This document shows positions 37,079 to 59,168 of a DNA stretch of 64,000 nucleotides, piece by piece (position 1 is the stretch's first letter; every line of letters starts with the position of its first letter). Source of the DNA: Tetradesmus obliquus (lineage: Eukaryota; Chlorophyta; Chlorophyceae; Sphaeropleales; Scenedesmaceae). The stretch is taken from assembly GCA_030272155.1 (NCBI GenBank), contig CP126198.1, positions 4,464,001 to 4,528,000 on the forward strand, written 5' to 3'. The position numbers and the translations under genes are program-made. Under the pieces are notes generated by a model, which worked only from the letters and a program-made list of their open reading frames with translations, was not told the origin of the DNA and did not search any database.

Positions 37079-40000
37079 ATGGCATCCTCAACACCAGCCC
37101 CTGCTGCACTGCAGCAGCCTCTGGCACACGACACACCAGCGGTCGCACCCGCACCAGATGCAGCCCTCACGCCTGTTGAAGTTGCACCTCGCCCTGCACC
37201 TATCTACAAGCCGACTCCCGTCGCTGCTAAGAAGGCGCCAGCCGCCAAGCAGGCCAAGTCCGGCCCCAATGTAGGCCTGATTGCTGGTGCGGCAGTAGCA
37301 GCGGTCACCGTGATTGCAGCAGGCGTGGGAGTGATGATGTCAGGCAAGAAAGCAGCACCCGAGCCGGCCAAGAAAGCATCCAGCAGGTCAGCAGCAGCTG
37401 CAAGGCCAGCTGCAAAGGCAGGCAGCGCCAAGGCACCAACCAGGTGGGGACCCTGATTTTACAGCAATTGCAGTGCATCGAGTCAACTCCTTAACACAGC
37501 TGCTTGGACTATCTGCAGCAGACGTCTTGAACGCGGTCTGAAACCTGCAGCTGCGCCAATGGGGCATATGTTTTGGGCGAAAATTGGCAGCTATTGCTGT
37601 CAGGTTGCGTCAGGCTGTCAGGCTAGCTGGCGGCTGCTGCTGCAGCAGCTGCATGAGCCACAAATAGCACCCATTCCCTGCACAATCAGCTCTAGCATAT
37701 CCTGGTAAACAGCTTTCAACATGCAGATGCTGCACACGGCCCTGGCAATAGCCACCTGACTTTGAGCATGACCACCTGCTGCTCACCCCTCAACTGTACC
37801 GCCATGTACTGCTTCTTGCACTTCGCCCTTTGTACTGCTCCCGCTTGCAGGACCAGCAGCAGCGGTGGTGGCGCAGCCAAGGCAGCCGGCACCCACAGCA
37901 GCAGCACAGCCCGCAGGAGCAGCTCAGGCACTGGCAGCAGCAGCAGGCCTGCATCACGCAGCTCCTCAACTGGTGGCGCAGCAAGCAGGAGGGCAGCAGC
38001 AGCAGCAACACCTGCAGCAGCAGCAGCAGCAGCAGCTCCTGCCGCCACAGACGCAGCACCAGCGCCTGTGGCTAAGCCCAAGGCAGCAGCCGCGCCAGCA
38101 GCACCAGCAGCGAAGCCTGCAGCACCGAAACCCGCTGCTGCACCTGTGGCTGAGGCTGCTGCAGCGCCAGTTGCAAACGGCGTGCCAGCTGCAGCTGCAG
38201 CTATGCCTGCCTCTGTAGCAGCAGCAGCCCCAGCAGCAGCAGCCCCAGCAGCAGCAGCACCTGCAGTAGTAGAGCCTGTTGCTGCAGCACCACCAGCAGC
38301 TCCAGCAGCACAGGAGGTTGCTGCACCACCAGCAGCAGCAGCAGCAGCACCAGTAGCAGCAGCAGCAGAGCCTGAGGCAGCAGCCCCAGCAGCAGCAGCA
38401 GCAGAGGTGGCTGATGAGCCTGCAGCACCTGTCACTCCTGCACCTGCAGCAGCAGCAGCAGCTCCTGCAGCAGAAGCCACACCTGCACCAGCAGCAGCAC
38501 AGGAGCCAGCATCATCAGCAGTAGAGGAGCCAGTAGCTGCTCAGGACGCAGCACCAGCAGCAGCAGAGGAGCCAGCAGCAGCAGCAGTTGAAGAGCCAGC
38601 TGCAGTGCCGGAGGCAGCAGCAGCAGCTGAAGCAGCAGCACCTGCTGCAGAGGAGGCAGCGGCAGCAGCTGCTGACGATGCCGAGGGAGCAGCAGCAGAG
38701 GAGGCAGATGGCGAGGTGAGTTTGAGCTTGCAGGAAGCAGCTGGCATCATGCTGGCGAAGAGCAACAACTGCCCCGTGGTTGGAAAGGCTGATGCATCTA
38801 ATTGCTCAACTCCAGCATGCTTACAAGCATTCACTTTGACTGTGCCTGCTTGCAGGACGGCAAGGGTCTGATAGAGCTGGCAGAGAGCCTGCCTGTAGCG
38901 GCCGAGGCATCTACCTGCCCTAACACACTTCTGCTGCGTCATGCTTCATCTGTTTGCAGGATGGCGAGGGCCTGATCGAGCTGGCAGAGGGCGAGACGCT
39001 GCCAGTGGTTGACGAGGCAGGCAACACGCTGGGCACGCTGCACCTGCTGACAAGCCATGATGCGCTGCTGTATGTCTGCCGTTCTATCTGCTTGCAGGAT
39101 GCAGAGTTGATCATGCTAGCCAAGAGCAAGAGCCTGCCAGTGGTTGGAATGGCTTATGATTCTTCTAATCCAGCATACTGACAAGCATTTATTCTGATTG
39201 TGCTTGCTTGCAGGACGGCGAACGGCTGATTGAGCTGGCTGAAGGGGAGACCCTGCATGTGGTCGATGGGTTGGGCATCTGTACTATGTTTTATCAACAT
39301 GCTTGCACTGCTCATCTGCTTGCAGGACGGCGAGGGACTGATTGATCTGGCAGAGGGCGAGACGCTGCCAGTGGTGGACGAGGCAGGCAATGCTGCGTTG
39401 AATCTCAATATCATTTTGCCTGATTTGCTTGCAGGATGGCGAGGGCCTGATTGAGCTGGCAGAGGGTGAGACGCTGCCAGTGGTGGACGAGGCAGGCAAA
39501 ACGCTGGGCACGCTGCACCTGCTGACAAGCCATGATGCGCTGCTGTATGTCTTCATATTGACCAGCTTGCTTGCAGGACGGCGAGGGCTTGATTGAGCTG
39601 GCAGAGGGCGAGACGCCGCCTGTAGCGGCCAAGACATCTACCTGCCCTAACACATTGCTGCTTCGATACGCTTCATCTGCTTGCAGGATGGCGAGGGCCT
39701 GATTGAGCTGGCTGAGGGCGAGACGCTGAACGTGGTCGATGAGGCATCTTCTGCTTCACCCTCTCCAGCATGCTAACATGCTTCTGATTTGCTTTCGCGT
39801 GCTTGCAGGATGGCGAGGGCCTGATTGAGCTGGCAGAGGGTGAGACGCTGCCAGTGGTGGACGAGGCAGGCAACACGCTGGGCACGCTGCACCTGCTGAC
39901 AAGCCATGATGCACTGCTGTGTTTTCTTGTGTTGACCAACTTGCTTGCAGGATGCAGCGGGCATCATGCTGGCCAAGAGCAAAAACCTGCCTGTGGTTGG

Positions 40001-42557
40001 AAAGGAGAAATCTTGTACTCTAGCATACTTACACGCATTTGATTCGACTGTGTTTGCTTGCAGGATGGCGAGGGCCTGATTGAGCTGGCAGAGGGTGAGA
40101 CGCTGCCTGTGGTTGACGAGGCAGGCAACACGCTGGGCACGCTGCACCTGCTGACGCACCGTGATGCGCTGCAATATGTCTTCTTGTTAACTAGCTTGCA
40201 GGATGCAGCGGGCCTCATGCAGGCGAAGAGCAAGAGCCTGCCAGTGGTGAAAAGCATATGGTGCTTGTACTATAGCACCTCACACACATATTGCTTGCCT
40301 GCTTGCAGGACGGCGAGGGCTTGATTGAGCTGGCAGAGGGCGAGACGCTGCCAGTGGTTGATGAGGCAGGCAACACGCTGGGCACACTGCACATGCTGAC
40401 AAGCCATGATGCACTTGTGTGTTTTTCTTGTTGACCAACTTGCTTGCAGGACGGCGAGGGTCTGATTGAGCTGGCCGAGGGCGAGACGCTGCCTGTGGTC
40501 GACGAGGCAGGCAACACGCTGGGCATGCTGCACCTGCTGACAAGCCATTGTGCACTGCAATATGTCTTCTTGTCCATCTGCTTGCAGGATGCACAGTTCA
40601 TCATGCTGGCTAGGAGCAAGTGCCTGCCAGTGGTTAGGAAGGCTGATGATTCTTGTAATCTAGCATGCTGACAAGCATTTATTCTGACTGTGCTTGCTTG
40701 CAGGAGGGCGAGGGCCTGATAGAGCTGGCAGAGGGCGGGACGCTGCCATGGGTGGATGAGGCAGGCAACACCGCTGGGCACGCTGCACCTGCTGACACAC
40801 CATCATGCACTGCTGTGTTTCCTTGTTGACTAGCTTGCAGGATACAGCCGGCCTCATGCTGGCCTAAAGCAAGAGCCTGCCAGTGGGAGGAAAGGCTGAT
40901 GATTCTTCTAATCCAGCATATTGACAACAACATAATCTGATTGTGCTTGCTTGCAGGATGGCGAGGGCCTGATTGAGCTGGCAGAGGGCGAGACGCTGCC
41001 CGTTGTTGATGAGGCAGGCAACACGCTGGGCACGCTGCACGCAGACGGCCGCGTGCTGGACGATGCGGGCCAGGAAATTGGCATGCTGGATGATGATGGC
41101 AACGTGGTGCTGTTTGAGCAGCAGGCAGCTGAGGGTGCGCGTTTGAATGATGTTACTTTTATGTTATTTCTTTGTGGGGTGCTGGTTGCCGTGTGCTGGA
41201 CGATGCGGGCCAGGAAATCGGCATGCTGGACGACGATGGCATCGTGGTGCTGTTTGAGCAGCAGGCAGCTGAGGGTGCGCGTTTGAATGATGTTACTTTT
41301 GTGTTACTTTTTAGTGTGGGCGCTGGTTGTTGTGTGCTGGATGATGCGGGCCAGGAGATCGGCATGCTGGACGATGATGGCAACGTGGTGCTGTTTGAGC
41401 AGCAGGCGGCTGAGGGTGAGGATTTTAATGATGTTACTTTTGTGTAAATTTCATTGTGGGGTGCTGGTTGCCGTGTGCTGGACGATTCGGGCCAAGACAT
41501 CGGCATGTTGGATGATGATGGCAACGTGGTGCTGTTTGAGCAGCAGGCGGCTGAGGGTGCGCATTTGAATGCTGTTGCTTTGTGTTACTTTTCCAAGTCA
41601 AGGGTCGGGGGGCACGTGTTAGGGGAGCATCATTTTTTCGCCTCTCATTGCGTGCAACCCTCTCCAGGACCGCTGCTGCAATCTAGTCGTCCATCGCACT
41701 CATTTGTATCCTCATTTCAACTGTGTATCCGCAGCTGAGCCCTGCCGAGGAGGAGGCTGAGTAGCCGACGCACTGTTTCAGGCACCCTCACCACAGACTA
41801 TGTTTGTCCACCTGTCTGCTACTATGTACGCAGAGCCCCAGCTGAGCCCTTCTGAGGAGGAGGCTGAGCCGCTGTTGCGCCTCCCACAACTGCTGCTTCC
41901 ACCTTTCTCATGCTGTTATCTGTGATCCTCATATTTTGTACGCAGAGCTGCAGCTGAGCCCTGCCGAGGAGGAGGCTGAGCAGCTGATGCGCCTTGCATC
42001 AGTGCTGCTCTTGACTTTCCCGGAATTTTTTTGTTTCTAATCTGCTTGTATATGCACTTGTATATGCGCAGAGCCGCAGCTGAGCCCTGCCGAGGAGGAG
42101 GCTGAGCAGCTGATGCGCCAGGCTGCTGTGGCATGGAACGTGCAGCACAACAAGGACGCGGCAGAGAAGTTCCAGCGCAAGGCGATGGAGGCAGTCACAG
42201 CCAAGGTGCGGCATGTTGTGAGCTTAATAGGTCCAGTGCAGCGTTGATTGTTGAGTTTGGCTGAACGCAGGTCTGTGTGGGTCTTGGCACCAGCTGAAGA
42301 CAGTGTAAGCACAAAGAGTCAAACATGCTTGGTCTTTGTGATGTCCAGACGGGTGGTCTAGCACGAGGGCAGACTTGCTTGCAGCATCGTGCGCTGCCGC
42401 CGCTGCTGCTGCTGCTGCTGCTCCTGTTGCATGGCATTTCTATAACGCACCAAGTGTCACACTGTTGCTGCTGCTGCCGCAGCCTGGGCTTGCGCGGCCG
42501 GAGATCATTGCGGGGACGTGGCCAGCAGCCTGGCTCATGATGCTCATGATGCTGAAC

Positions 42558-42588
<31 letters not shown>

Positions 42589-45500
42589 AGCCCGGGCTTG
42601 CTCGGCCGGAGATCATTGCAGAGGTGGCCAGCAGCCTGGCTGACATGCTGTACGCCAGCGACAAGCTGGTGGACGCAAAGGGAGCGCTGCAGGTGGGGCA
42701 GGTAGCAGCGTTAGTAACATGTTACAAATGTGTTCGAAATGTCAACTTGCCCAGCAGCTGTACGCCAGTGACAAGCTGGTGGACGCAAAGGAAGCGCTGC
42801 AGGTAAGGCAGGTGGCAGCGCTAGTAACGTGCTACACATGTGTTTGAAACGTCGATTTGCCCAGCAGCTGTATGCCAGTGACAAGCTGGTGGACGCCACA
42901 GGCGCGCTGCAGGTGAGCGCAGCAGCTTTTGCAGTGCTGCACAGCTAGCTGTGGTGTGGCAGCATTAAAGGGTTAAAACAATGTAGCGCTTGCTTTTGTC
43001 TGCAGCGGCTTTTGCTGATACACGGGCTGATGATACATGGGCCGCAGAGCACGCTGCTGGGGCAGGTGGTGTCAAAGCTGGCGTGTGAGCTGCAGTGCAA
43101 CACCTCAAAACTGGCAGGCTACTCACATGCATCGCCTATCATGTCATTCCGCTCATCCTCAGGTTGCGCTGGACGCTGCTGAGGCCGGCGGGCAGCACGC
43201 GCTGTACATCAAGCTGTCCAACAACATCTCACATGTATCCTCTGCATTGTGCTTGATCTTAATTGCAGGTTGCGCTGGATGCTGCGGAGGCCGGCGGGCA
43301 GCACTCGCTGTACATCAAGCTGTCCAACAACATCTCACATGTATCCTCTGCATTGTGCTTTATCTTAATTGCAGGTTGCGCTGGATGCTGCGGAGGCTGA
43401 CGGGCAGCACGCGCTGTACATCAAGCTGTCCAACAACATCTCACATGTATCCTCTGCATTGTGCTTGATCTTAATTGCAGGTTGCGCTGGATGCTGCGGA
43501 GGCTGACGGGCAGCACGCGCTGTACATCAAGCTGTCCAACAACATCTCACATGTATCCCCTGCATTGTGCTTCATCTGGGTTGCAGGTTGCGCTGGACGC
43601 TGCTGAGGCCGGCGGGCAGCACTCGCTGTACATCAAGCTGTCCAACAACATCTCACATGTATCCTCTGCATTGTGCTTGATCTTAATTGCAGGTTGCGCT
43701 GGATGCTGCGGAGGCCGGCGGGCAGCACTCGCTGTACATCAAGCTGTCCAACAACATCTCACATGTATCCTCTGCATTGTGCTTTATCTTAATTGCAGGT
43801 TGCGCTGGATGCTGCGGAGGCTGACGGGCAGCACGCGCTGTACATCAAGCTGTCCAACAACATCTCACATGTATCCTCTGCATTGTGCTTGATCTTAATT
43901 GCAGGTTGCGCTGGATGCTGCGGAGGCTGACGGGCAGCACGCGCTGTACATCAAGCTGTCCAACAACATCTCACATGTATCCCCTGCATTGTGCTTCATC
44001 TGGGTTGCAGGTTGCGCTGGACGCTGCTGAGGCCGGCGGGCAGCACTCGCTGTACATCAAGCTGTCCAACAACATCTCACATGTATCCTCTGCATTGTGC
44101 TTGATCTTAATTGCAGGTTGCGCTGGATGCTGCGGAGGCCGGCGGGCAGCACTCGCTGTACATCAAGCTGTCCAACAACATCTCACATGTATCCTCTGCA
44201 TTGTGCTTTATCTTAATTGCAGGTTGCGCTGGATGCTGCGGAGGCTGACGGGCAGCACGCGCTGTACATCAAGCTGTCCAACAACATCTCACATGTATCC
44301 TCTGCATTGTGCTTGATCTTAATTGCAGGTTGCGCTGGATGCTGCGGAGGCCGGCGGGCAGCACTCGCTGTACATCAAGCTGTCCAACAACATCTCACAT
44401 GTATCCTCTGCATTGTGCTTTATCTTAATTGCAGGTTGCGCTGGATGCTGCGGAGGCTGACGGGCAGCACGCGCTGTACATCAAGCTGTCCAACAACATC
44501 TCACATGTATCCTCTGCATTGTGCTTTATCTTAATTGCAGGTTGCGCTGGATGCTGCGGAGGCTGACGGGCAGCACGCGCTGTACATCAAGCTGTCCAAC
44601 AACATCTCACATGTATCCTCTGCATTGTGCTTTATCTTGGTTGCAGGTTGCGCTGGGCGCTGCTGAGGCCGGCGGGCAGCACGCGCTGTACATCAAGCTG
44701 TCCAACAATCTCTCATGTATCCCCTGCATTGTGCTTTATCTTGGTTGCAGGTTGCGCTGGACGCTGCTGAGGCCGGCGGGCAGCACGCGCTGTACATCAA
44801 GCTGTCCAACAACATGGGTGCAGTGCTGCGCAAGCAGGAGCTGCACGAGGAGGTGCGGCAGCAGCAGATGATAGCTCGTGCTGATGCAGCTCCCCTGGTT
44901 GTTACCGTTAGCAAACAATTGCTGTACATGTTGAACGACCAGGATTTTTGTATACACAGGGGTTTCCTTACCCTGGTCATAGTGTCGTTGCTGCAGCTGG
45001 GTCACCGGCTTGCCTGCACCTCATCGTCTGTCGCGCCCACATTTCAAACGCTGTTACTTTGTTACTTTTCCTGCAGGGCAAGCAGCTGCACCAGAAGGCC
45101 ATGGACATGGCCCTGCAGCACTTTGGTGTGGCACACGCCTCCCACTGGCTGTCCATCTGTCGCACCACTATTCAAAAGCTGTTACTTGTGTTACATTTGC
45201 AGGGCAAGCAGCTGCACCAGAAGGCCATGGACGTGGCCCTGCAGCACTTTGGCGTGGCACACACCTCTTACTGGCTGGCCAGCTGTCGCACCACTATTCA
45301 AAAGCTGTTACTTGTGTTGCTTTTGCAGGGCAAGCAGCTGCACCAGAAGGCCATGGACGTGGCCCTGCAGCACTTTGGCGTAGCACACGCCACCACAACA
45401 CTGGCACGTGGTAACCTCGTGGATGCTCTTGACCAGCTGGGTGACCGTGATGCTGCAAGGGAGCTGCTGAATGGCAGCATCGAGTCAATCAAGAAGGTGA

Positions 45501-48219
45501 GACTGTTATATAACAGTGCAACAGTATCACATTTTGTGCTCATCCTTTGCACAAGCCAAAGGGCTTGCACCTCTCACCGTCCTGATCATTCTCAAGTGTA
45601 TGCAGTGATGTTGCTATCCAGTTTTACACCGCATTCTTGCCCAGCTGTTACCAACCACTGTCATGACACTGTAATTCAACTGTTATTTTCAGGTTGCTGA
45701 TGACAAGGAGGCCGAGGAGGTGGCCAAGGGCCTCAAGCCGGGCAGTGAGGAGGCGGCGGCAGCAGCAGCAGCAGCAGCCAAGCAGGCCAGCAGCCCTGAG
45801 ATGGCTGCCATGCTGGCGATTGACAGCACGCGCGCACACACCGCCAGCATCCGCGTGCAGGTGCGTAATCTGAGCGTGTTTGATTGTTTAAGGTTTGAAG
45901 TGCGTGAAAGTGGTGGGATTCGTATGCTTCTTGCTTGTGGAGTGCAGATGGCTGCTGAGGCTGTGCTTGTATGCATGTACTGCCGTTGCTGGCACTTTAA
46001 AAGGTTGCTTGCTGCTCGCTTCCACCAAAGTGAAACCATCCACTTTTGTATGCTCTCTGCAGATTGAGCTGGCGCGTCTTGAGATGAAGGCCAAGGCCTT
46101 TGACCGCGCCGTGGAGGTGCTGCAGGGCGCACACGCCCTGGCCGTGGACAAGTTTGGGGAGGAGACGCCCGAGGCCTGTGAGTACATACATTCCACCCGT
46201 AAAGCTTCACTTATCACCACTGAACTCATTGGCATCAGCGCACACCAACATGCCCACTAGCAAATAGTAGTGGACCCTGGCCATGGACAAGTTTCGGGAG
46301 GGGACCCCCGAGGCCTGTGAGTGAATCCAGCTGAAAACTCATACCATGACTCTGTTGGCATCAGTGCTGCAAATGTGCAGCTGCCGCCTTGCGCCTGCAT
46401 GACTAATGCAATTCATGTTCCAGCTGCAGCGTCCACCATGGCTGCGCTGGCCACCTGCCACCGCCAGGCGGGCAAACCAACACGCCTCTGTGGCGCTATC
46501 CTGCCGTCCACCCTGCTTACATCATGTTTGCAATTAACTGCTCTATGCTGCAGCCTCCGCCATGGCTGCGCTGGCCACCTGCCACCGCCAGGCGGGCAAC
46601 CCACCAAGCCTCTTTGCCTTACTCTCCTGCACCTCTGACTGCTTGATGTCTGCTGCCTGTTGTTCCTCTGCATCATGTCCACCTTGCTGCAGCCTCTGCC
46701 ATGGCTGCGCTGGCCACCTGCCACCGCCAGGCGGGCAACCTGGAGACGTCTGCCTGACTGTCCTGCGCCTCTGATTACCTGCTGTCTGCCGCATTTTTTG
46801 CCTCTGCACCTATATTACATTGCAGCCTCTGCCATGGCTGCGCTGGCCACCTGCCACCGCCAGGCGGGCAAGCAGGAGACCTCTTTCTTGGTATCCTGCC
46901 TCTCACCCTTTGGCTGCTGCCAGTGTGTCTGCCTAAATGCTGTCTGCAATGTCACCTGCACCTTATTTTTGAATGCAGCCTCCGCAATGGCCGCGCTGGC
47001 CACCTGCCACCGCCAGGCGGGCAACCTGGAGACGTCCGCCTCCCTGTTTGAGCAGCTGTACAGCATCAACGAGCGCCAGAGCGAGGGCCCAGTGAACCAG
47101 AGCGGCGTGATGCTGGCACGCACCCTGGCTGACGTGCTGGGAGAGGCAGAGCGGTGAGTCGGGGTTTTGAATGGGTTGGGGTTTCGGGAGTTTGGGGTGG
47201 AGCACAGCAGGCTGGCACGGCGTGCTGGCGATGCTGGGACGGAAGTTGGCTGACGGCCAGCAGAGACGGAGCGGTGAGCGCCAGCCTTTGAACAGGGGTG
47301 TTTCTGTACGGTATCAACGAGCGCCAGAGCGAGGGCCCCGTCAACCAGAGCGGCGTGATGCTGGCACGCACCCTGGCTGACGTGCTGGGAGAGGCAGAGC
47401 GGTGAGTGTGACTTACAAATCATCAGCTCTAAACTTGTAGCAAGCAGGCGGGAACTGTTTATGCTGTCGCACACGCTAGCTGATATGCTGGTTGAAGCTG
47501 AAGGATGAGTATCTCAGCATTCAATTAGCGAGTTTCGTGTGCAACGCTTCAGTTGTGAGCGAGGGCCCGGTCAACCAGAGCGGCGTGATGCTGGCACGCA
47601 CCCTGGCTGACGTGCTGGGAGAGGCAGAGCGGTGAGTTTTGCCGTTCTGCGTTGTTTTGCATGCTTTCCTGCAGCGGTTGTGGCATGCATCGGTTCTTGT
47701 GGGTAGTGATGCTGACTCACACAAGCTAGCTTCAGCTGTCTTGGATCAGAGGAATGCTTGACTCTGGGCCCCACTTCGTCAGCCTGCTGAACAAATAACA
47801 AACTTAGCATGATTGCTGCTGCTGCTGCTGCGCAGGTGGGGTGACGCGCTTGTGTGGGCTGAGAAGGCGCTGAGCCTGATGCAGCAGATGGCAGGAGTCA
47901 AGGTGCACCCTGCACTTGAGCCCTTCTTTGCCCTGGTGATTGAGCTGAAGAACAAGACAGGTACGCTTTATCTTGTTACATTGTTGTTACTTGTTATGCT
48001 ACATGTTGCATTTTGTTGTGACAATACATTACATGCTCCGCTCAAACGAGGAGTGGGAACCCCAGTCAGGAGCCAACGAGAGGCCCATAGGGGGATTATT
48101 CCCAAGAGCTTGATGCAGCAGATGGCAGGGGTGAAGGTGCACCACGCGCTGGAGCCTTTCTATGCCCAAGCATCATGTGACCACAGCGCAGCATCAAAAC
48201 CAAGCTCGTTCGACCATCC

Positions 48220-48254
<35 letters not shown>

Positions 48255-48346
48255 TATTTGTTTGGAATAAAAACAGGTGATGAGGCGGGTGCTGAGGAGC
48301 TGCGCAAGCAGCTGCTGAAGGGCAAGCTGCAGATGGCTGACACCTC

Positions 48347-48380
<34 letters not shown>

Positions 48381-48402
48381 CTGTTCACTGACACCTCCGT
48401 TG

Positions 48403-48454
<52 letters not shown>

Positions 48455-49463: not shown

Positions 49464-49468
49464 TGTAA
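49464..49468 (+). promoter_or_regulatory. TGTAA polyadenylation motif (TPR gene)
   Basis: About 820 bases after the stop at 48640; the nearest + strand TGTAA that I found. The convergent SLX9 gene has its own reverse-strand motif at 49927-49923. Confidence 0.4.
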
Positions 49469-49922
49469 CTTGTTAGTAGCACATACCCCACAGAACTTCT
49501 GAAGTCATTGAATGAGATGATAGTTGGGCCTGGGCCGTTCAGCACTTTACAGAGAGGAGAGTTACACGTAGGTCCTGGCACCATCTTGCATGGTGTGAGC
49601 CCCAACAGGGTGCAAGCATCGCCTGAACCCAGAACCTGAAGGTTTGAGAGTGGACACCATAGAACAAGATGTACAGTCTTGCTGGCCAAATCCTTCATGT
49701 TGAGCAATGCAGCTGTCCTTGTCAACATGACAGCCACCACCATGCACCGCACAGATGGGTGGTGGTGGCTGTAATCGGCACCAAATGCATGCACGTTCAT
49801 AGCAAAATCTGTGCACTGAGTGAGGCATGCTGCTTGACGCTGCTCAGGGCAGCATCACTTCTGCTGCACACGGCTTGCAAAACAAGACTGCCGCGCCAGA
49901 CATGCACGCCGAATGCACATTG

Positions 49923-49927
49923 TTACA
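49923..49927 (-). promoter_or_regulatory. TGTAA polyadenylation motif (SLX9)
   Basis: Reverse-strand TGTAA about 255 bases past the SLX9 stop. Confidence 0.5.
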
Positions 49928-50181
49928 AGCTGAACTCTGCTGTGGTCTGCAAGCATGACACAACTGCTGTGGGAGCACAGATGCCATCTGTCAGTGCAGC
50001 GCACTGTTGAAGCCACCGCCTGCTGCGTGCGCAAACGGACTCTTCGGTGCGTGCCAAACGATTGTGCAGCAGTCAATCTGGTACATTCCTCGCTGCCTAC
50101 GCACTGATGTGCATCGCACCACTCGACAGCCCTGCTGCTGACACTCCAGCTGCCGCTGCTGCTGCTGCTGCTAGCAATAGG

Positions 50182-50778
50182 CTACGGCTGCATGTCTGCC
50201 ACGCCTCCGCCACCACTCTTGCTGCTTTTCTTCTTCTTCTTAGCCCCCTGCTGCCCTTGCCGCTGCTTCGGCGGCTGCGGCGCCGCAGGCATAGTGGCAT
50301 TCAGGTGGTTGGTAATCGCCTGGATGGGGTCTGCCTTATACATCGGGTGCTGCATCACCTGCTGCAGCCGCTGCATCTCAGTAATTCCAACTGCTAGCCG
50401 AGCCTTGGAGCGCTTTATGCTGCTTTTTGTGCCCTTTCCAGAGCGCTGATGCTGCTGCTGTTGCTGCCCCTGCTGCTGGTTGTCATTTTCCTGCAAGCCA
50501 GCAAGCTGCTCCAGCTCTCCTGCAAGTGACCGTAGGTCTGGCAGTGCACTTTTGGCCTTCCCTCGCTTCTTTTTTACGCCTTTTTTGGCGTGTAGCGCGG
50601 CTGAGGCGCTGCTTTGGGCGACTTTCTCGAAGAATTTGACTTTCCTGGTTATCTTCTTCTGCAGGTGCTGCGGAGGCTTGGGCCCTGCTGCTGCATCTGC
50701 ATCTGCTGCGCTGCTGCTGCCGCCTGCTGCCTGTAGGGCCTTGTATCTGTGCGCGCCTCCGACTTTCTTTTTGACCAT
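50182..50778 (-). CDS. SLX9: SLX9-family ribosome biogenesis protein
   Basis: Single exon, 198 residues, starting MVKKKVGG. The family pattern is complete: a basic N-terminus with KKITRKVKFFEKV, a Lys-rich stretch (AKKGVKKKRGKAK), LPDLRSLAGELEQL, a Gln-rich linker, then the conserved SIKRSKARLAVGITEMQRLQ block ending MQHPMYKADPIQAITNHL, and a Lys/Ser/Gly-rich nuclear-localisation-like tail. SLX9 (FAM207A in animals) is a nucleolar factor that helps 18S rRNA maturation and export of small-subunit precursors. Length is close to the usual 180-230 residues; the Gln linker from CAG repeats is a local addition. The reverse-strand TGTAA 255 bases downstream suits its 3' end. Confidence 0.85.
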   Translation of the reverse strand: MVKKKVGGAHRYKALQAAGGSSSAADADAAAGPKPPQHLQKKITRKVKFFEKVAQSSASAALHAKKGVKKKRGKAKSALPDLRSLAGELEQLAGLQENDNQQQGQQQQQHQRSGKGTKSSIKRSKARLAVGITEMQRLQQVMQHPMYKADPIQAITNHLNATMPAAPQPPKQRQGQQGAKKKKKSSKSGGGGVADMQP

Positions 50779-51719
50779 GGCTGCAGCTGATGAGCTGAAA
50801 GATGATTGCTGCTGCTGGAGAGGCTGCTGCTGCTACTGCTGCTGCTCGTTGGGTGAGGGCAGCCCGCTGTAATGCTGCGAACACACTTCACAAGTTGCAG
50901 GAACTCTAGCTATAGGTGGTTGGGGACTGAAATATAAGTGCTGAACACCTTGATGTCGGAGCAAAGCAATCGCAGCACGAGAACAGAAGGAGTCCACGGA
51001 CGGCTGTTGCACATTTACTAGCTTCTTGAATACGCATAACATCAGGCTCGAACGCTTTCAAATGCAGTTCTTCTGCTTGGCGCGCCTTCTGCAGCAAAGA
51101 TGCGGCTTAGGGCTTGACATGACAGCCACTGTCACTTGGCACAATGCCAGCTGCTCTAAGCAGCGGCAGAAGACATGTCGCTCGGTGTCGCTGCATTGAC
51201 CAGCAACACTTCCTAGCGCATGGCACGTGGCCCAGGGAGCCTGTGCATACGCAGCAGCCGCTTCACACCTGTCAGGACCAAGCAATGGCTGCAGCAGTGA
51301 TTGCGTGTTACCCAGAGGTGGCCACAGCCAGAGCTAGCTGGCTGAACCTGCTGGGCCAGGCTGGCTGCCGCTGGCCCCACAACAACCACGTGTGCACATA
51401 AAACGGCGTCAACATTCTGACTGTTCGCCGTGTTTCAAACACTAAGTTAGCACCCAAGGCGCACACAGTAGGTGCAGCCAGGGCCAGGAATGTGCACTGG
51501 GCCTGCATGCGTGTGTAGGTGCCACACCCTGGTCTGACCTGTCATGCTTTCGTCTGATTGCTGAGCATGATCTTACAAAACTGCTGGAACCCTGCCGTGT
51601 ACTTAAGGCGGGCGACTTCATATCATATGATCCGCATCACGCCTCCTCATCTGAAGATGCGCTGCTCGATGCCAGCAGTCAACTAATTGAAAACTGTCCT
51701 ACAGCAGACCTGCTCCTCT
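50779..51719. other. Intergenic between SLX9 and the kelch gene
   Basis: SLX9 promoter side plus the 3' flank of the kelch gene. Reverse-strand coding-like words (ARQAEELHLKAFEPDVMRIQ near 51000-51090) are not connected to splice sites I trust. A reverse-strand TGTAA lies at 51577-51573. Confidence 0.45.
51573..51577 (-). promoter_or_regulatory. TGTAA polyadenylation motif (kelch gene)
   Basis: Reverse-strand TGTAA about 145 bases after the kelch gene stop at 51720. Confidence 0.55.
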
Positions 51720-54046
51720 TCAATCCTCCTCATCAGAAGATGCATCCTCCCATTCGCTGTCGTCGCTGCCTGCAGCACCCGCCTTTGCTGCTGCTGCTTT
51801 GAAGACCTCCTCCCCGACCGTGTTCTCTTTGACCAGCTGCCAGCCATCAAGTTTGACCAGGTCAAGGCTCCACATGTCATCTAATGTTATTTCTGACTCC
51901 CCGACTTCCACCACGCCGCCCAGCAGCCACAGCGTGTTGCCGGCAACAGCAACCTGCAAGCTCACAGATCCAATGGTGGCGCTGACGAGTGAACGACTCA
52001 TGATGAAGATATGTTTGAGGCAAGCAGCCGGCAGGCGGTTGTGCATGCTGGCAGGAAGGCAGGCAGGTGTAAGAGGTGACAGGCGTCTGAGCCAACATGC
52101 AGGCTATAAATGGGCAACAGCATCCTGCAAGCCAGCGGGCAGTATAAACGGTGGGTCAGCATATGGCCAGTTGGCAGGCAGGCAGGCAGGCAGCCGCAGA
52201 TCACAGATGTCCAGTCCCGTTTGCAGGACTGTCATTGGCGGCAGCGCGCACCTCAAGGCTGATGTGTGCGCAAGGCTTGGGCATGTTCAAACTGCAGCTG
52301 CCAGCAGCACATCTGTCAATGAAGTGTGTTGCTGACAGCATTTCAATGTATACTGTTGACATTTTCATCATCAGCCGCAGCGCGCACCTGGGGGCTGATG
52401 CGTGCGCGCGGCTTGGGCATGTTTTTTGCGCTCATGTCCAGGCCGTAGGCTGCAAACTTACAACCGAGATACACCACAATTTCAAGCCATTTCATGATCA
52501 AAATTGATTGAATGTGCAGAACCTATGTCTGTAACAGCAGCCGCAGCGCGCACCTGGGGGCTGATGCGTGCGCGCGGCTTGGGCATGTTCTTTGCGCTCA
52601 TGTCCAGGCCGTAGGCAGCCGGGCTGTACAGGATCTCGCTGACCACGCCGCCCAGCTGGTACAGCTTGTACGCCTTGCGCACCACGTAGCCCCTGCACAC
52701 AGAAGGAGAAGAAGGGTTGTATTCTTAAGTAAAGGAATAGAAGAAGTTTCAAGAACACTGCCAAGTGTCAGCAGTGTTCCACTGGTACAGCTTGTAGGCC
52801 TTGCGCACCACGTAGCCCCTGCGTTGGCATCAAACCATTTGGAATCCGGATCATTTGTTTATTGAGTGTCAGCAGGTGCAGCAAGGTATCAGCTTTCTTC
52901 AGCTGGTACGGTTTGTACGCCTTGCGCACCATGTAGGCCCTGCAGGCAACACATCGCCATGGCTGGATTGGCAACATGCTGCCAACACTGATGATGATGC
53001 AAAGCTCTGACTCAACAGATTGCAGCTGCTGACATGGGCATGCTGCATTTTCCTTGCCTACACACCAGAGCAGCAGCAGCTCCTGCATGTGGTTGCATGC
53101 ATCTCTGCCTGCATCCCACTGCGTGAATGTGCATCACCAAGCCCTTTCTCACCTGACCCTAGACTGGATGGGCACTGCAGCCCTGTAGATGGCAGAGTTC
53201 TTGTCCTGGCCAGCATCCATCAGAGCTGCCAAACCTCTGATGCAAATGGCCGCAGCTGCTATCACGGCTGTGCTGCACATTTTCAGCGGCAGCAGCTCCT
53301 GCATGTGGTTGCATGCAACTCTGCCTGCATCCCACCGCGTGAGTGTCCATTACCAAGCTCTTTCTCACCTGAAGCGAGACTGGATGCGCACCGCAGCCCG
53401 GTAGATAGCTGAGTTCTTGTCCTGGCCAGCATCCATCAGCGCTGCCATCTCCCGGCTGACATCGCCGCTGCTGCCGGCGCCGCCAGCTGGTTTGCTACTG
53501 CTGCTGCTACTGGCCGCTGCTGCTTGCTGCTGCTGTTGTTGGCTACCTGTGTCTGCTGCTGCTGCTGGTGGTTGGCCGTCTGCTGCTGCTGCTGCTGCAT
53601 CTTGCTGCTGCTTGTAGTCTTTTGGCGGCCGTAGCTGCGCAGCAAACCAGCGCCTGCAGTGCAGCAGACCGCAAGCGCAGGAAACAGTGCAAAACGGGCA
53701 TGTGAGAGCTGTACACCAATGCAATTATGAATAAACGCCTGTGCACATCTCGACCTGACCTGCCTTGCTCAACCCTGCTCCAACTCTTTCTCAAAACCCT
53801 GTGTAGTTCCGTTACACACCTATATTTGAGGCTGAAGGTGCAGAGGTCATTGTGGAAGTCATAGCTGAAGGCGAGCAGGCCGCATCAAAAATAACAAACA
53901 TAACAACAAAATAACAAAACAACTAAACATCTGAGGCCGCACCTGTTGTTGAAGTTGAAGGTGTAGAGGTCGTTGTGGAACTCGCTGCTGAGGTCCTCGC
54001 CGCGCTTTGTCTCGTTGTCACTCACGCCGCCAAACAGGAACGCCCT

Positions 54047-54114
<68 letters not shown>

Positions 54115-54686
54115 CAGCAGCCAAACCTTGCACTTTTCTTGAACTGCCCTCCTACCAACCTGGCAGCAAACAACCGTCAGCCGTAACCTTGGCAACACCA
54201 CCAACATCAGAGCACCTGGCTTTGTTGAGCACCACTGCACAGGAGTAGGTGACAGCACTTCAAATTTTGTTTTGAACAGTGTCAGCTCGCTCCCTCAGCG
54301 CACCTGGCCTTGTGCGGCACCATTGCAACGGAGCACACTAGCGCAACTAGCACTCCCTTTCAGCAACGTTCAGCCACAGAAACCAGCCCAGGCCACGCAC
54401 CTGGCTTTGTGTGGCACCATGGCGAAGGAGCAGCGGGGGCCTGGCGCCATGCCCACCTTCTTGATGCGCTCCCACTGCAGCAGCAGGGCAGCAGCAGCAC
54501 AGGTTTGAAAGTAACGTTATAACAATATTTTAAATTGCAAGTATAAAGAGCGCAGCTGGCATGCTGCGGGCACCATGCCCACTTTCCCGACACCAAAGTT
54601 GGCCTGCCAGGGCACATAAAAGCGGGTTACAAACCGGCGGTCAAACACGGATGCCAGCATGGTGCTACAATCATGTGCTGCAGACA

Positions 54687-54717
<31 letters not shown>

Positions 54718-54869
54718 AGCTGTGGTGGCTCACTGTGTGGCTCTTGAGGTCCAGCGCCCACATGTCATCATGTGCCTTGCCACACCACGCTTGGCACGTC
54801 AAGACAAGGAAAAGCAGGCTACAAACCTGTGGCAGTACACATACCGACGCCTGGTGGTCCCAATCATCG

Positions 54870-54908
<39 letters not shown>

Positions 54909-57313
54909 TTGTGGCCACTCACTGTGTGGCTCTTGAGGTCCAGCGCCCACATGTCATCATGTGCCTTGCCGTGCTCCAGGTCCTCGTCCTCGTCATCCTT
55001 GTCCTGCATGACGCAATGCAGCAAAAGAGTGAGGCGTGCGCCTTGCCGTGCTCCAGGTCCTCGTCCTCGTCATCCTTGTCCTGCATGACGTGACGCAGCA
55101 AAAGACTGAGACACTTGGTGCTGTGACACCAGCAAAAGTTGATACACATGCCTTGCCATGCTCCAGGTCATTGTCCTTGTCATTCTCGTCCTGCGTGACG
55201 CGATGCAGCAAGACACATCGAGACGACCGCGCCTGCTGTCTGACACAGACATACCAGCCATCCAAGCAGCAGCTCAAACCACGCCGCAGCAGATCAGGAA
55301 ACGTACACATAATCCTATGGACATTGCTGAAAATCATTGTGGCAGCGCACCTTGACGTAGCCGCCGTACATGTACAGCACATCCCCAGCCACCATCATCT
55401 GGCAGCCGACAAATAAAGTAACAGATATAACAAATAAAATAGCACAACAATATCCAAAGTACAATAGCTGCCCACCTTGACGTAGCCGCCGTACATGTAC
55501 AGCACATCCCCGCCCACCATCATCTGGCAGCAAACTCTATCTAAAGTCTTCTGCCTGATCTAAACAATGATAACATCCCACCTTGACGTAGCCGCCGTAC
55601 ATGTACAGGGTGTCGCCAGCCACCATCATCTGGCAGCCGACAAATAAAATGACAAAGCAAAACCCAAGGATAACAGCCCACCTTGACATAGCCGCCGTAC
55701 ATGTACAGCACATCCCCAGCCACCATCATCTGGCAGCCGCTGCGCGCAGCAGGCCAGGGGTGCTGCCCCGGGCTGCCCAGTGGGGTCCAGGCCAGCTCAG
55801 ACAGGTCCAGCTGCCACAGATCGTTGTAGTACCTGCAAAGGTAACCACATGCAGTACATTCAGCAGTTTCTTTTGCATGATCCACTGCATAAGTTGCACG
55901 AGCTTGGCGCAAGCCGCCCAGGTGTGCTGCCCCGGGCTGCCCAGCGGGAGCCAGGCTAGCTCCGACAAGTCCAGCGCCCACAGGTCGTTGTAGTACCCGC
56001 ATAACATGTTACAGTGTTGATCTCGACACATCGGACAATCAAAAATTTGTCACGTTATCTCGGGCTTTAGTCAGTGGGGTCGAGGCCAGCGCAGATAGAT
56101 CCAGGGCCCACAGGTCGTTGTAGTACCTGGAGAAGAATCACATGCAGTACGAGTACATAAGAAGCTTCATTAGATACGGCAACATGCAAGAAGACGGCTT
56201 CGAGCGTGTTGCATGTTACACTGGGTAGCTTGCAGAACCCTACAAGCGCTGCAGCAGAAACCTGCCCTGAGGTCAACACAATCCTGCCGCCACAAATCCC
56301 AGAGCATGCCGCCAAACACCCACAACTGCAGGCGTCACTCACTTCACGTCGCGCCCGTTGTCATAGAACCCTCCAAACAGCAGTGCGCGCCCCTTGTGCA
56401 CCGCAATCCTGTGCCCGCTGCGTGCTGAGGGCCCGCCCTTGAGTGGCAGCTGGTCCCACTCGTTGGTGGACAGGTCCAGCCGCCACAAATCGCTGCAGCA
56501 ACAGAAATGTAACAAGTACAGCTAATGTGTGGCTTCAGTTTCAGCAGCAAGTGGGTTTGTGAGGCGCCCCTTGAGTGGCAGCTGGTCCCACTCGTTGGTG
56601 GACAGGTCCAGCCGCCACAAATCGCTGCAGCAGACAGTAATCAGCACACGCAGGAGAACCAACTATTTCTTCATGGTCGTGCTAGTGGCATCAACCCAAG
56701 GCGAGCGATTGTCTTTACGTTACATTTGCAGATATTGCTGGAGACAGGAGACACCTGCCACATGTCAAAAGCTAGCACAGGCGGGCATGTCACTGTGCCT
56801 ACTGGCAACAAGAAGCATCCAACACCGCAATGACATCATAACAATGTAACATTGTTACAACAACGCAATGTAACACGGCAGGGGCCCTCCTCACCGGAAG
56901 TGCATCAAGCGCTCCTGGTTGGGTGAGCTGAACTCTTCGCCCCACACGTACATGAAGCTCTTGTATATGAATGCATGATTTTAACAGCCAAAGTAACACA
57001 TAAAGTAACAAAATAAACATCAAAATAACAGTACACAAAGACTTCTCACCGGAAGTGCATGAAGCGCTCCTGGTTGGGTGAGCTGAACTCGCCGCCCCAC
57101 ACATACATGAAGCTCTTGTGGATGAATGATTGGCAATTGTAACAATCAACATAACACATAAAGTAACAGGATAACATCAAAATAACAGTACACAAAGCCT
57201 GCTCACCGGAAGTGCATGAAGCGTTCCTGGTTGGGCGAGCTGAACTCCCCGCCCCACACGTACATGAAGCTCTTGTGGATGAAGGCCTGGTGCGCACAGC
57301 GCGGGCCCGGCCT

Positions 57314-57384
<71 letters not shown>

Positions 57385-57528
57385 GGCGGCAGCATCACCA
57401 CCCACCCCTCGGTCACCACCATGCTCTGCAGCAATCAAGCAACCAAATAAAAGCTGCAATTCCACCGTCCCTGCGCTCCACACGAGCAGCAGCAGTGGCA
57501 CCATCGTTGGCAGCAGCAGCACGATCGC

Positions 57529-57563
<35 letters not shown>

Positions 57564-57778
57564 CCACCACCTACCCCTTGGTCTCCACTTGGCTCCAGCG
57601 CTGCTTGTCAGTGCTGAACTTGTACAAGTTCTTGTACGCGTAGACCTTGTCCTGTACATGATCCTTGTACCCACAAAGGGCAGCAACAGCAGCAACCAAT
57701 CTGCTGGCCCCGGATTCAGCACCCGCAGCCCCAACAGCACTATCAACACCTTGAAAGCCGTAGCAACACCACCACCAC

Positions 57779-57811
<33 letters not shown>

Positions 57812-59166
57812 CCCGCTCACCCCTTGGTCACCACTTGGCTCCAGCGCTGCTTGTCTGTGCTGAACTTGTACAGGTCCTTGTACACGTAGACCTTGTCCTT
57901 CATGTGGTCGCTGAACTCGCCGCCAAACATGACGATGTCCGTGCCACGCTGCAGCAGCAGCAGCAGCAGCAGGAGCAGCAGCAGCAGCAGCAGGAGCAGG
58001 AGCAGCAGCAGCATGCCAATGACACGTCTGAAATGAGGCTTTCAATTGCGCGCAGCCCTGCTTCAAGAGGCTGCTGTCACTGCTGCACGTAACTGCTGTA
58101 TGGTGCAGTTTCTCCCTGGAAGCTGCTGCTGCTGCATTCCCCGCTGCTGATTTGTGATGCTGCAACTTACGATTCAACATATAATGCGACACTAAAACCA
58201 ACAGTCGCACCTAGCCAATCAGGCGGCTGGCTCAGCAATCTATCAACTAACCAACCTGTGTCACGTAGGGCACGAAGGATGCGTTGACACGCGCTGAGGG
58301 CGGCTCGCAGTCGTTGATGACCTGCACAACACAGCAGCAGCAGAGCAGCAGCAGCAATACTATCTGGATGGGTTGTCCTGATCCCCTGCCAGCGCCTTAT
58401 CCGTGCAACCTCCAAACCCATGCCCCCACCCACGCACTGCATTGTCACCGCCTTCAGCTGCCGCTCCTCCATTGGGACTGTTTCTACATTATATGACCAA
58501 CCCTACGGCATAACACAGAACACGCCGCCATCAGTGCTGAATGCAGCCTCCATCCTGCCACAGCGCACCTGCCCTGCCTTCAGCTGCTTCTTCTCAAGTG
58601 CACACTTGGCCAGCAGCGCATCAAAAGCGCAGAGCACACCTGCCACCACAACGCCAACAGCATGTGCAAACCAACTCGCTACTGCACAACCCACCTGCCC
58701 TGCTTTCAGCTGCTTCTCCTCAAGTGCATACTTGGCCAGCAGCGCGTCGAAGTCGTCTTCGTCCCCTGCAAGCGCTTTATGTCACCCCCTTTCCCAAAAC
58801 AAACCCCAAAACCTCTGCCCACCTGCCCTGCTTTCAGCTGCTTCTCTTCCAGTGAAAATTTGGCCAGCAGCGCGTCAATGTCATCCTCGTCCCTGCAAGC
58901 GCTTTATGCCATCCCCGCTTCCCAGCACAACCCTACAACCTCTGCCCACCTGCACTGCCTTCAGCTGCTTCTCCTCAAGTGCAAACTTGGCCAGCAGCGC
59001 ATCAATGTCGTCCTCATCCCCTGCCAGTGCTTTATCTGTTCTGCGCTGCGACTTGAGCTCATTGGCTTTTGTTTTGCGCTCTGTCTTTTCAGCGCCCTTG
59101 CCGGCACCTGCTGCTGGGCCATCCTTCTTCTCCTTGGCTTTCTTCTTCTTGTCGCGGCCTGAGCCC

Positions 59167-59168
<2 letters not shown>
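51720..59168 (-). CDS. KLHDC4: Kelch-domain protein of the KLHDC4/KEL3 type with an IQ motif
   Basis: Twelve exons: 59168-58950, 58321-58256, 57948-57821, 57311-57207, 56492-56343, 55832-55682, 55003-54923, 54474-54401, 54044-53943, 53653-53369, 52692-52554, 51953-51720. Every phase matches, giving 577 residues. The N-terminus is Lys-rich (GRDKKKKAKEKK) followed by DIDALLAKFALEEKQLKAV, as in KLHDC4. Kelch blades follow: TDIVMFGGEFSD with DLYKFSTDKQRWSQV; RCAHQAFIHKSFMYVWGGEF; RSGHRIAVHKGRALLFGGF; YNDLWALDL/ARSGCQMMV...LYMYGGYVK; RCSFAMVPHKARAFLFGGV; and a last VAVAGNTLWLLGGV...DDMWSLDL, then an acidic tail. A perfect IQ motif (IQSRFRGYVVR, residues 449-459) lies before the last blade after a Gln/Ser-rich insert. 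By homology this is a beta-propeller interaction scaffold; its partner is unknown. Nearly every intron holds partial exon copies. Confidence 0.88.
52240..52540 (-). repeat. Two donor-side copies of kelch exon 11
   Basis: MPKPRARISPQ-encoding fragments with GTGCGCGCT donors at about 52427-52384 and 52283-52246, downstream of the full exon's end at 52554. Confidence 0.88.
52760..52945 (-). repeat. Two acceptor-side copies of kelch exon 11
   Basis: Fragments encoding GYVVRKAYK-LYQ with CAG acceptors at about 52938 and 52819, before the complete exon starting at 52692. Confidence 0.88.
53150..53220 (-). repeat. Donor-side copy of kelch exon 10
   Basis: DAGQDKNSAIYRAAV-like end of exon 10 with GTGAGAAAG donor, repeated in the following intron about 215 bp beyond the real donor at 53369. 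Confidence 0.87.
53825..53885 (-). repeat. Diverged donor-side copy of kelch exon 9
   Basis: FHNDLYTFNFNNR end of exon 9 recurs as FHNDLCTFSLKYR with a GTGTGT donor, about 110 bp downstream of the real exon end at 53943. Confidence 0.8.
54048..54113. repeat. (CAG)22 run = (CTG)22 before kelch exon 9 acceptor
   Basis: Read in the transcript direction, 22 CTG units run directly into the CTGCAG acceptor of exon 9 (exon starts 54044). Pure repeat without interruption. Confidence 0.92.
54205..54330 (-). repeat. Two donor-side copies of kelch exon 8
   Basis: MVPHKAR-type exon ends with GTGCGC and GTGCTC donors at about 54330-54302 and 54245-54218, beyond the real end at 54401. Confidence 0.85.
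54730..54790 (-). repeat. Donor-side copy of kelch exon 7
   Basis: HDDMWALDLKSHT end with GTGAGC donor, about 185 bp downstream of the real exon end at 54923. Each is followed by a CAG tract in the transcript direction. Confidence 0.88.
55030..55195 (-). repeat. Two acceptor-side copies of kelch exon 7
   Basis: DKDDEDEDLEHGKA start fragments at about 55084-55040 and 55193-55150 (the latter DENDKDNDLEHGKA), before the full exon at 55003. The nearer copy keeps a CATGCAG acceptor; the farther one reads CACGCAG. Confidence 0.88.
55355..55640 (-). repeat. Three donor-side copies of kelch exon 6
   Basis: CQMMVAGDVLYMYGGYVK ends with GTGGGA, GTGGGC and GTGCGC donors near 55635-55585, 55526-55476 and 55402-55352. 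Spacing is 109-124 bp, all downstream of the real end at 55682. Confidence 0.92.
55900..56132 (-). repeat. Two acceptor-side copies of kelch exon 6
   Basis: YYNDLWALDLSxLAWxPLGSPGQH start fragments at about 56131 and 55998, before the complete exon at 55832. The 56131 copy has a CCAGG-type acceptor; the other reads GCGGG, with no AG. Confidence 0.87.
56565..56632 (-). repeat. Acceptor-side copy of kelch exon 5
   Basis: RDLWRLDLSTNEWDQLPLKG start fragment with an intact CTGCAG acceptor, about 135 bp before the full exon at 56492. Nearly identical to the exon. Confidence 0.92.
56893..57125 (-). repeat. Two donor-side copies of kelch exon 4
   Basis: HKSFMYVWGGEFSSPNQERF ends with GTGAGA and GTGAGG donors near 57125-57053 and 56960-56898, following the real end at 57207. 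The intron piece repeated with them contains TAACACATAAAGTAAC. Confidence 0.92.
57315..57381. repeat. (CAG)22 run = (CTG)22 before kelch exon 4 acceptor
   Basis: In the transcript direction, 22 CTG units lead straight into the CTGCAG acceptor of exon 4 (exon starts 57311). Confidence 0.92.
57575..57665 (-). repeat. Donor-side copy of kelch exon 3
   Basis: KVYAYKNLYKFSTDKQRWSQ end with GTAGGT donor, about 240 bp beyond the real exon end at 57821. Confidence 0.9.
58550..58895 (-). repeat. Three donor-side copies of kelch exon 1
   Basis: DDIDALLAKFSLEEKQLKAGQ-type ends with GTGGGC, GTGGGT and GTGCGC donors near 58890-58825, 58765-58695 and 58625-58568, all within intron 1. The copied exon start (ATG side) is absent from all of them. 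Confidence 0.9.

Follow-up and report, generated by a model that had tools for sequence, protein, structure and literature searches.

Why do introns of the green alga Tetradesmus obliquus contain partial copies of their own neighbouring exons, each with a splice site and nearly all on one predictable side of the complete exon? This question is raised by a stretch of 64,000 nucleotides (contig CP126198.1 of assembly GCA_030272155.1, positions 4,464,001 to 4,528,000 of the forward strand), which we call the window and whose coordinates are used throughout. Within it we studied the interval 37079-59168 with two intron-bearing genes, a KLHDC4-like Kelch gene and a TPR gene. The genome searched was the assembly of 104.66 Mb in 17 contigs, and a published table gives 108 Mb, 57% GC, a mean intron length of 462 bp and 7.8 introns per gene for T. 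obliquus (PMC5966456).

Reading both strands of the interval gave two complete gene models with together 24 exons and 22 introns, all introns being GT-AG and the frame staying open throughout. We aligned each exon, extended by flanks of 70 nt, to the introns next to it and obtained 77 matches. Acceptor edges are contained in 44 of them, all upstream of the complete exon, and donor edges in 22, all downstream; none of these 66 edge copies violates this order or has both exon edges. The other 11 matches have neither edge, nine being without any exon base and two having at least 20 exon bases. At least one edge copy is present at 17 of the 24 exons, the splice dinucleotide is intact in 64 of the 66 copies, and in a control with dinucleotide shuffles (ten of every flanking intron) one best match in all reached the threshold. 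The ordered partial copies with splice sites described in the initial annotation are therefore real. Its count of roughly 80 fragments is reduced to 66 by our threshold, although about 80 is plausible when short copies found by eye are included, and its ‘at least five genes’ are not confirmed for the interval, where there are two intron-bearing genes and one intronless open reading frame (ORF), whereas many genes elsewhere do carry copies.

Beyond the interval we analyzed a genome sample of 260 kb taken at fixed positions (13 samples from 13 contigs), with exons from a gene finder trained on this genome, which gave 29 genes with at least 420 coding bases. In the interval the gene finder called 64 exons, an overcall, and found 17 of the 24 known exons exactly, which is not a fully independent test as window splice sites stayed in its splice matrices. 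Self-training on window and sample together drifted and was given up for a masked version, with round one trained on the window genes and later rounds on the sample. The side rule is kept by 109 of the 112 sample edge copies, 55 with the acceptor edge upstream and 54 with the donor edge downstream, and three copies are on the wrong side, so that the rule stated earlier as without exception holds for 66 of 66 copies in the window but not strictly in the sample. The remainder of the 128 sample relations consists of two whole exons, 12 interior pieces and two flank-only matches. Edge copies occur in 15 of the 29 predicted genes and in 12 of the 13 samples.

Six Pfam families were also searched in their own genome (396 matches, the tool scoring only the best candidates). 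Overlapping neighbours among the matches gave 30 relations, namely 17 of acceptor type upstream, six of donor type downstream, one of acceptor type downstream, four interior pieces downstream and two that are nearly whole and short; the side rule is thus held by 23 of the 24 edge-type relations. They come from five of the six families (chaperonin, HSP70, kinesin, MCM and a tRNA synthetase class), and no copy relations were found for the proteasome family in this genome-wide family search. Scoring exon edges by side, as the initial annotation had proposed, hence shows the same bias outside the interval, and the edge-copy pattern is confirmed as real, far above chance and not local. This also bears on an assembly artefact of repeat handling, which we regard as highly improbable: long near-identical 106-bp arrays are error-prone to assemble, but the exon parts of neighbouring copies are about 9% different, and tandem pairs as well as edge copies were each seen in 12 of 13 samples, with copies in five of six gene families. 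The only sample without tandem pairs is S04 (L015-L016), whose predicted gene g10 presumably includes a hAT transposase dimerisation region. In sample S08 (L023-L024) there are two neighbouring paralogs, g18 and g19, which we take to be transporter-like; edge copies are listed for g18 only, and such paralogs could therefore date the arrays.

The offset spectrum comprises 139 primary arrays, 35 in the interval, 10 elsewhere in the window and 94 in the sample. Their units peak sharply at 100-150 bp, with a mode at 120-130 bp in interval and sample alike; one array falls at 50-80 bp and 11 sample arrays fall below 50 bp. Successive spacings of 161 copies from window and sample, a 15-copy array being counted once, lie at 90-165 bp in 80% of the cases and below 90 bp in 2%, with a second group near twice the unit, so that the 100-180 bp of the initial annotation were nearly right. 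The splice site is found near the middle of the unit, with a median exon part of 57 and a rest of 63 for acceptors (n = 73), and of 53 and 73 for donors (n = 58). Neighbouring copies not more than 170 bp apart were compared by gapped local alignment, to which the 15-copy array contributes three pairs. For 99 of the 135 pairs 60% or more of the intron part could be aligned, namely for 44 of 59 between the real exon and an outer copy (from here on a decoy) and for 55 of 76 between two decoys. In 43 of 78 pairs the homologous stretch amounts to 0.9 or more of the spacing, in 22 to 0.6-0.9 and in 13 to less than 0.6. As far as can be judged from these alignments, this supports an origin of the copies by head-to-tail tandem duplication of a whole unit with its intron part included, in line with the breakpoint in the exon and the breakpoint in the intron that had been postulated.

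A different origin would be an introner-like mobile element, in which the spacer together with the exon end carries the splice site. This is hardly credible: the outer flank of some young copies is indeed not alignable with others, but two spacers that were searched genome-wide had no match outside their own array, and dispersed copies in many genes, as known from introner elements, were thus not found for these two. A second birth route by insertion of a new spacer plus site, to which the flanks of outermost copies that could not be aligned had pointed, was rejected on similar grounds, the two searched spacers being unique in the genome and most neighbours sharing the whole unit. The idea of a shared spacer motif was dropped as well; the recurrent TGTTACTT, partly located inside arrays, occurs 18 times in sense and never in antisense orientation in 323 predicted introns and could be a splicing or RNA-binding motif.

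We consider it likely that tandem duplication of a narrow unit combined with splicing at the inner site lengthens these introns and leaves outer copies that are nearly neutral. A duplication process with a unit of about 95-165 bp would keep copying short stretches of the genome, and where the unit straddles an exon edge one breakpoint would lie about 55 bp in the exon and the other about 65-70 bp into the intron. The product, as the arrays themselves display, would be a truncated exon end on the outer side that still has the whole splice site, beside the intact exon with its own site. With the inner sites, the pair closest across the exon, being spliced, presumably by exon definition, the mRNA would stay unchanged and the intron would gain one unit, which agrees with the gene models and the related proteins. 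Outer copies would then decay, further rounds of duplication would extend the array, and units altering the coding sequence would be removed by selection. Duplication of an acceptor yields the order tail-P-tail-P-rest of the exon, where inner splicing puts the first P outside and outer-site splicing would bring tail sequence into the mRNA. As the side rule follows from this duplication geometry together with inner-site use, it is not independent evidence for either of them.

Use of the inner site is indicated by the gene models and by two deposited protein sequences. The best match of the TPR protein is T. obliquus OEZ85_014298 (99% identity over model residues 400-860, the part searched), which follows TPR exons 3-12 without including any copy, the remainder outside these residues being compared by eye. 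GHRQ01030000.1 is 92% identical to the Kelch protein and contains exons 1-9 in order followed by a read-through into apparent intron 9 sequence; judging by its name we take it to be a transcript-assembly entry. According to the accessible part of PMC9225289, human data and minigenes show that exon definition favours the sites closest across the exon, i.e. the upstream donor and the downstream acceptor, and intron definition favours those closest across the intron. We infer from this that the arrays behave as under exon definition.

Could the copies instead be alternative exons that arose by tandem exon duplication and are spliced into some transcripts? The gene finder does call many of them as exons, and the best match of the Kelch protein, T. 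obliquus A0A383WDZ9 (93% identity by BLASTP with the full query, 99% over the alignment), includes intron 7 sequence that was retained, and the start of exon 8 occurs one extra time, as WERVKK ahead of WERIKK. On the other hand both splice sites are present in 0 of 66 window copies and in 2 of 128 sample relations, and OEZ85_014298 and GHRQ01030000.1 skip the copies. Moreover, with the 15-copy array left out, the distance from decoy to real site gives remainders 0, 1 and 2 on division by three in 56, 47 and 57 cases, in frame no more often than by chance, and the extension resulting from use of the decoy would run into a stop in 118 of 160 cases, 17 of 160 staying open and in frame. Changes private to decoys (232 in total) comprise 89 synonymous, 135 replacement and 8 nonsense changes compared to neutral shares of about 0.27, 0.70 and 0.03, and 17 of the 20 gaps in decoys, all gaps being from the sample, break the frame. 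Decoys are therefore not coding exons, since frames and stops are at chance level and neither nonsense nor frameshift changes are avoided, and despite the slight synonymous excess, for which mutation bias or exchange with the real exon may be responsible, we regard alternative exons as very unlikely. The frame and codon statistics of the decoys fit near-neutral decay, which is consistent with the inert fragments of the initial annotation.

Several observations nevertheless weigh against intron growth by duplication and inner-site splicing as proposed here. In Volvox and Chlamydomonas the shortness of the introns has been taken as a sign of intron definition (PMC4378016, accessible part), and A0A383WDZ9 holds one copy-like piece. 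This extra exon 8 start is not at that place in the window, which points to either a turnover of copies among strains or an annotation error, and also to the possibility that copies leak into deposited proteins. The earlier explanation that exon definition leaves the fragments unspliced fits OEZ85_014298, GHRQ01030000.1 and the accessible data of PMC9225289. Furthermore, the intron part is only partly aligned in 28 and hardly in 8 of the 135 neighbour pairs, and when strictly aligned, the flanks of 27 of 74 outermost copies match that of another copy, compared to 68 of 101 for inner copies.

A further group of observations, mostly contrary, concerns how well the decoys are preserved. Real exon and decoy diverge by 0.091 in exon sequence and by 0.172 in intron sequence (44 neighbour pairs with the intron part aligned over 60% or more), and this ratio of 1.9 is close to the 1:2 predicted for neutral decoys, where constraint acts on just one of the two exon copies. 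Between two decoys, however, the values are 0.084 and 0.174 with the exon part better kept in 49 of 55 pairs, slightly exceeding the neutral expectation of 1:1 to 1:2. Decoy-private changes number 69, 66 and 100 at the three codon positions, a lean to the third (p = 0.011). Of the copies, 161 of 175 (92%; 64 of 66 in the window and 97 of 109 in the sample) have kept an intact splice dinucleotide, compared to 83% expected at the measured divergence (p = 0.0006), although our search favours copies that cross the junction. Decoy acceptors resemble real ones in their pyrimidine share (0.64 and 0.67, other intronic YAG 0.49) and in their AG-free run (37.4 and 36.3 nt, random intronic positions 12.5 nt). 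This run is longer than with 15% neutral replacement in four flank classes (one-sided p = 0.007, 0.077, 0.38 and 0.018), the excess over the simulation being clear in two of the four; for the 30 decoys whose flanks are least similar it is 42.5 compared to 34.5 (p = 0.007). Finally, all four gametes occur at 24 of 99 informative site pairs in the exon-derived block, which suggests exchange between copies.

All of these features except the real-decoy ratio and the third-position lean would be in favour of functional decoys, selected as splicing enhancers, as reserve sites that take over as real ones once recombination between exon-derived blocks has contracted an array, or as regulated non-productive sites. 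We nevertheless find this unlikely, as the real-decoy ratio is about neutral with gapped alignment, nonsense and frameshift changes are not avoided, and four gametes can also be produced by recurrent mutation. Lineage divergence is small (about 0.09) and therefore most splice features should still persist in decoys; their youth explains most of this retention, perhaps not all of it. A weak constraint is possible, for example through recombination that turns a decoy into a real site. Strong selection on decoys had been considered on the basis of ungapped or strict global alignments, in which the exon parts kept an identity of about 0.83-0.92 independently of how similar the flanks were, and an abrupt step appeared at the splice motif. 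This contrast was exaggerated because non-adjacent copies and indel shifts were mixed in, and the step is partly expected because the real exon and its motif are constrained. Gapped local alignment of neighbours mostly removed it, and it was withdrawn as evidence, although a residue remains.

The last observations that intron growth by duplication and inner-site splicing leaves without explanation concern where the duplications occur. The central position of the splice site in the unit is non-uniform (KS p = 0.001 and 5e-5). Of random units of 100-155 bp placed in the sample, 17% would cross a single edge, 2.1% would include a whole exon, 3.1% would lie inside an exon and 77.7% would contain nothing but non-coding sequence. 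In the raw sample count of 56 arrays with a unit of 84-166, 24 overlap a predicted edge and 23 are copies from edge arrays, together 47 edge-linked arrays, one belongs to another exon copy and eight are unassigned. As exon-derived parts ease detection, the 47 of 56 overstate the enrichment and a masked test was therefore used, in which exons and exon-derived copies were hidden. Here 16 of 30 arrays are at edges compared to 18% expected (p = 1.3e-5); set against each other, 16 edge-spanning and 14 purely non-coding arrays contrast with the 18% and 82% predicted from sequence space. By eye several of the 14 look like edges of exons missed by the gene finder, and two overlap short-unit minisatellites. 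The edge bias is probably real, its size being uncertain. The near lack of complete exon duplications noted initially is largely expected from the unit size (2.1% compared to 17%), yet the 2 of 114 whole-exon copies in the sample are still below the 11% expected (p = 0.0004). Not supported in this form is the claim that only duplications across an exon edge persist, as it gives no explanation for the scarcity of non-coding duplications, which should be tolerated at least equally well.

One answer would be that duplications arise preferentially at exon-intron junctions, with breakpoints at a fixed distance to either side, for example at nucleosome or R-loop borders. This is compatible with the proposed lengthening, which leaves the cause of the bias open, and we see it as possible though not probable. 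The masked result, obtained from non-coding sequence alone, the central splice site (median exon part 53-57, rest 63-73) and the equal numbers of donor and acceptor edges (54 and 55 expected-side copies) argue for it. Against this, the sample exons come from an overcalling gene finder (17 of 24 exact, 64 called), several ‘non-coding’ arrays resemble missed-exon edges by eye, 14 non-edge arrays of the same size exist, and selection after the event could centre the unit too. More specifically, and more doubtfully, a mutational process might be aimed at the junctions with a fixed window of about 125 bp (about 55 in the exon, 65-70 in the intron), treating donors and acceptors alike, with the spare sites being partly maintained as a reserve. 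If junction-aimed duplication were true, the splicing architecture itself would set where introns grow.

The Kelch gene (51720-59168, minus strand) has 12 exons at 58950-59168, 58256-58321, 57821-57948, 57207-57311, 56343-56492, 55682-55832, 54923-55003, 54401-54474, 53943-54044, 53369-53653, 52554-52692 and 51720-51953. Its copies, all on the same strand, begin with three donor-edge copies of exon 1 (58563-58907), one of exon 3 (57515-57653) and two of exon 4 (56886-57126). Exon 5 has one acceptor-edge copy (56568-56641) with 57 identical exon bases and an outer flank that is not alignable. Exon 6 is accompanied by two acceptor-edge copies (55907-56150), the AG being broken in one, and three donor-edge copies (55343-55608), exon 7 by two acceptor-edge copies (55074-55211) and one donor-edge copy (54668-54781). 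Single donor-edge copies follow exon 9 (53817-53868) and exon 10 (53084-53259, with a well conserved intron flank), and exon 11 lies between two acceptor-edge (52782-52944) and two donor-edge copies (52238-52453). Long CTG/CAG runs at 57314-57394, 54047-54121 and 48348-48453 adjoin acceptors of both genes, for example of Kelch exons 4 and 9.

The 12 exons of the TPR gene (37079-48640, plus strand) are located at 37079-37443, 37851-38715, 40957-41134, 42072-42205, 42591-42692, 44751-44852, 45329-45496, 45693-45860, 46063-46177, 46979-47153, 47836-47960 and 48465-48640, and its copies are on the plus strand as well. Twelve acceptor-edge copies precede exon 3 (38782-40788) and three donor-edge copies follow it (41188-41590); the array before it (38715-40900) shows two interleaved unit types, DGEGLIELAEGETLPVV and DAAGIMLAKSKNLPVVGK, the second perhaps being an old diverged copy. 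Exon 4 has two acceptor-edge copies and a third one starting 2 bases inside the exon (41729-41993), and exon 5 one acceptor-edge (42462-42511) and two donor-edge copies (42757-42922). Fifteen acceptor-edge copies of exon 6 (43160-44708) form an array with a period of 106 bp; over 43160-44815 variants recur every 424 bp or 4 units, as in recently amplified satellites. Further copies are two with the acceptor edge of exon 7 (45028-45265), one with the donor edge of exon 9 (46275-46322), four acceptor-edge (46425-46883) and two donor-edge copies (47304-47637) of exon 10 and one acceptor-edge copy of exon 12 (48221-48339). An exception is the interior-only copy of exon 11 with neither edge (48106-48167). 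Between both genes the intronless SLX9-like ORF (50182-50832, minus strand; PF15341, E 2.7e-15) showed no copies. ORFs at 61390-63311 of the window resemble, as we assume, a tyrosine-recombinase-like protein and perhaps belong to a mobile element.

The arrays point to introns that were lengthened without transposons in many genes of one genome. They form a large set of natural experiments: as many as 16 nearly identical splice sites can follow one another, and the only one that appears to be used lies beside the complete exon, so that exon and intron definition in green algae become directly testable and the genome offers a naturally occurring test of how a cell selects one among nearly identical sites. 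They are also a warning for annotation, as many fragments were taken for exons by the gene finder and one seems to have entered at least one deposited protein. In the open-access literature we found no genome with a 125-bp duplication mode centred on splice junctions and no recognisable description of this pattern, which is weak evidence as most subscription papers lie outside this scope. The accessible text of a comparative Sphaeropleales paper (PMC12571836) mentions neither introns nor tandem repeats according to a term search.

Among known systems, tandem exon duplication with mutually exclusive splicing also repeats exon sequence within a gene, but there whole exons with both sites are repeated and here one edge. 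Intronic minisatellites (variable number tandem repeats) are similar to the 15-copy 106-bp array in behaviour, and differ in that the unit of the alga carries an exon edge with its splice site and that most arrays are short and diverged. In stwintrons an internal intron interrupts the donor, branch point or acceptor of an outer intron (PMC8469720, accessible part). The proximity rule of exon definition, by which equal-strength sites compete and the pair closest across the exon wins, was shown in human cells (PMC9225289), whereas here it would be deduced from natural duplications in a green alga. A plausible generator are the small tandem duplications from break repair, which are likewise head-to-tail and free of a mobile element, a comparison by kind and not by size or breakpoint sequence, as far as the accessible part of PMC8355091 describes them. 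Adjacent single-strand breaks have reportedly been connected with small tandem duplication (Schiml 2016). Another known neighbour is the AGGT model, in which tandem genomic duplication is a source of introns (PMC3443670; PMC4974935). In the accessible parts of both papers a short in-gene duplication likewise stays silent since splicing removes the extra copy, but the duplicated piece is exonic, bears AGGT and makes a new intron of one unit. In the alga the piece is not purely exonic but spans an existing exon edge in all 66 window copies, lengthens an old intron and leaves a spare outer site.

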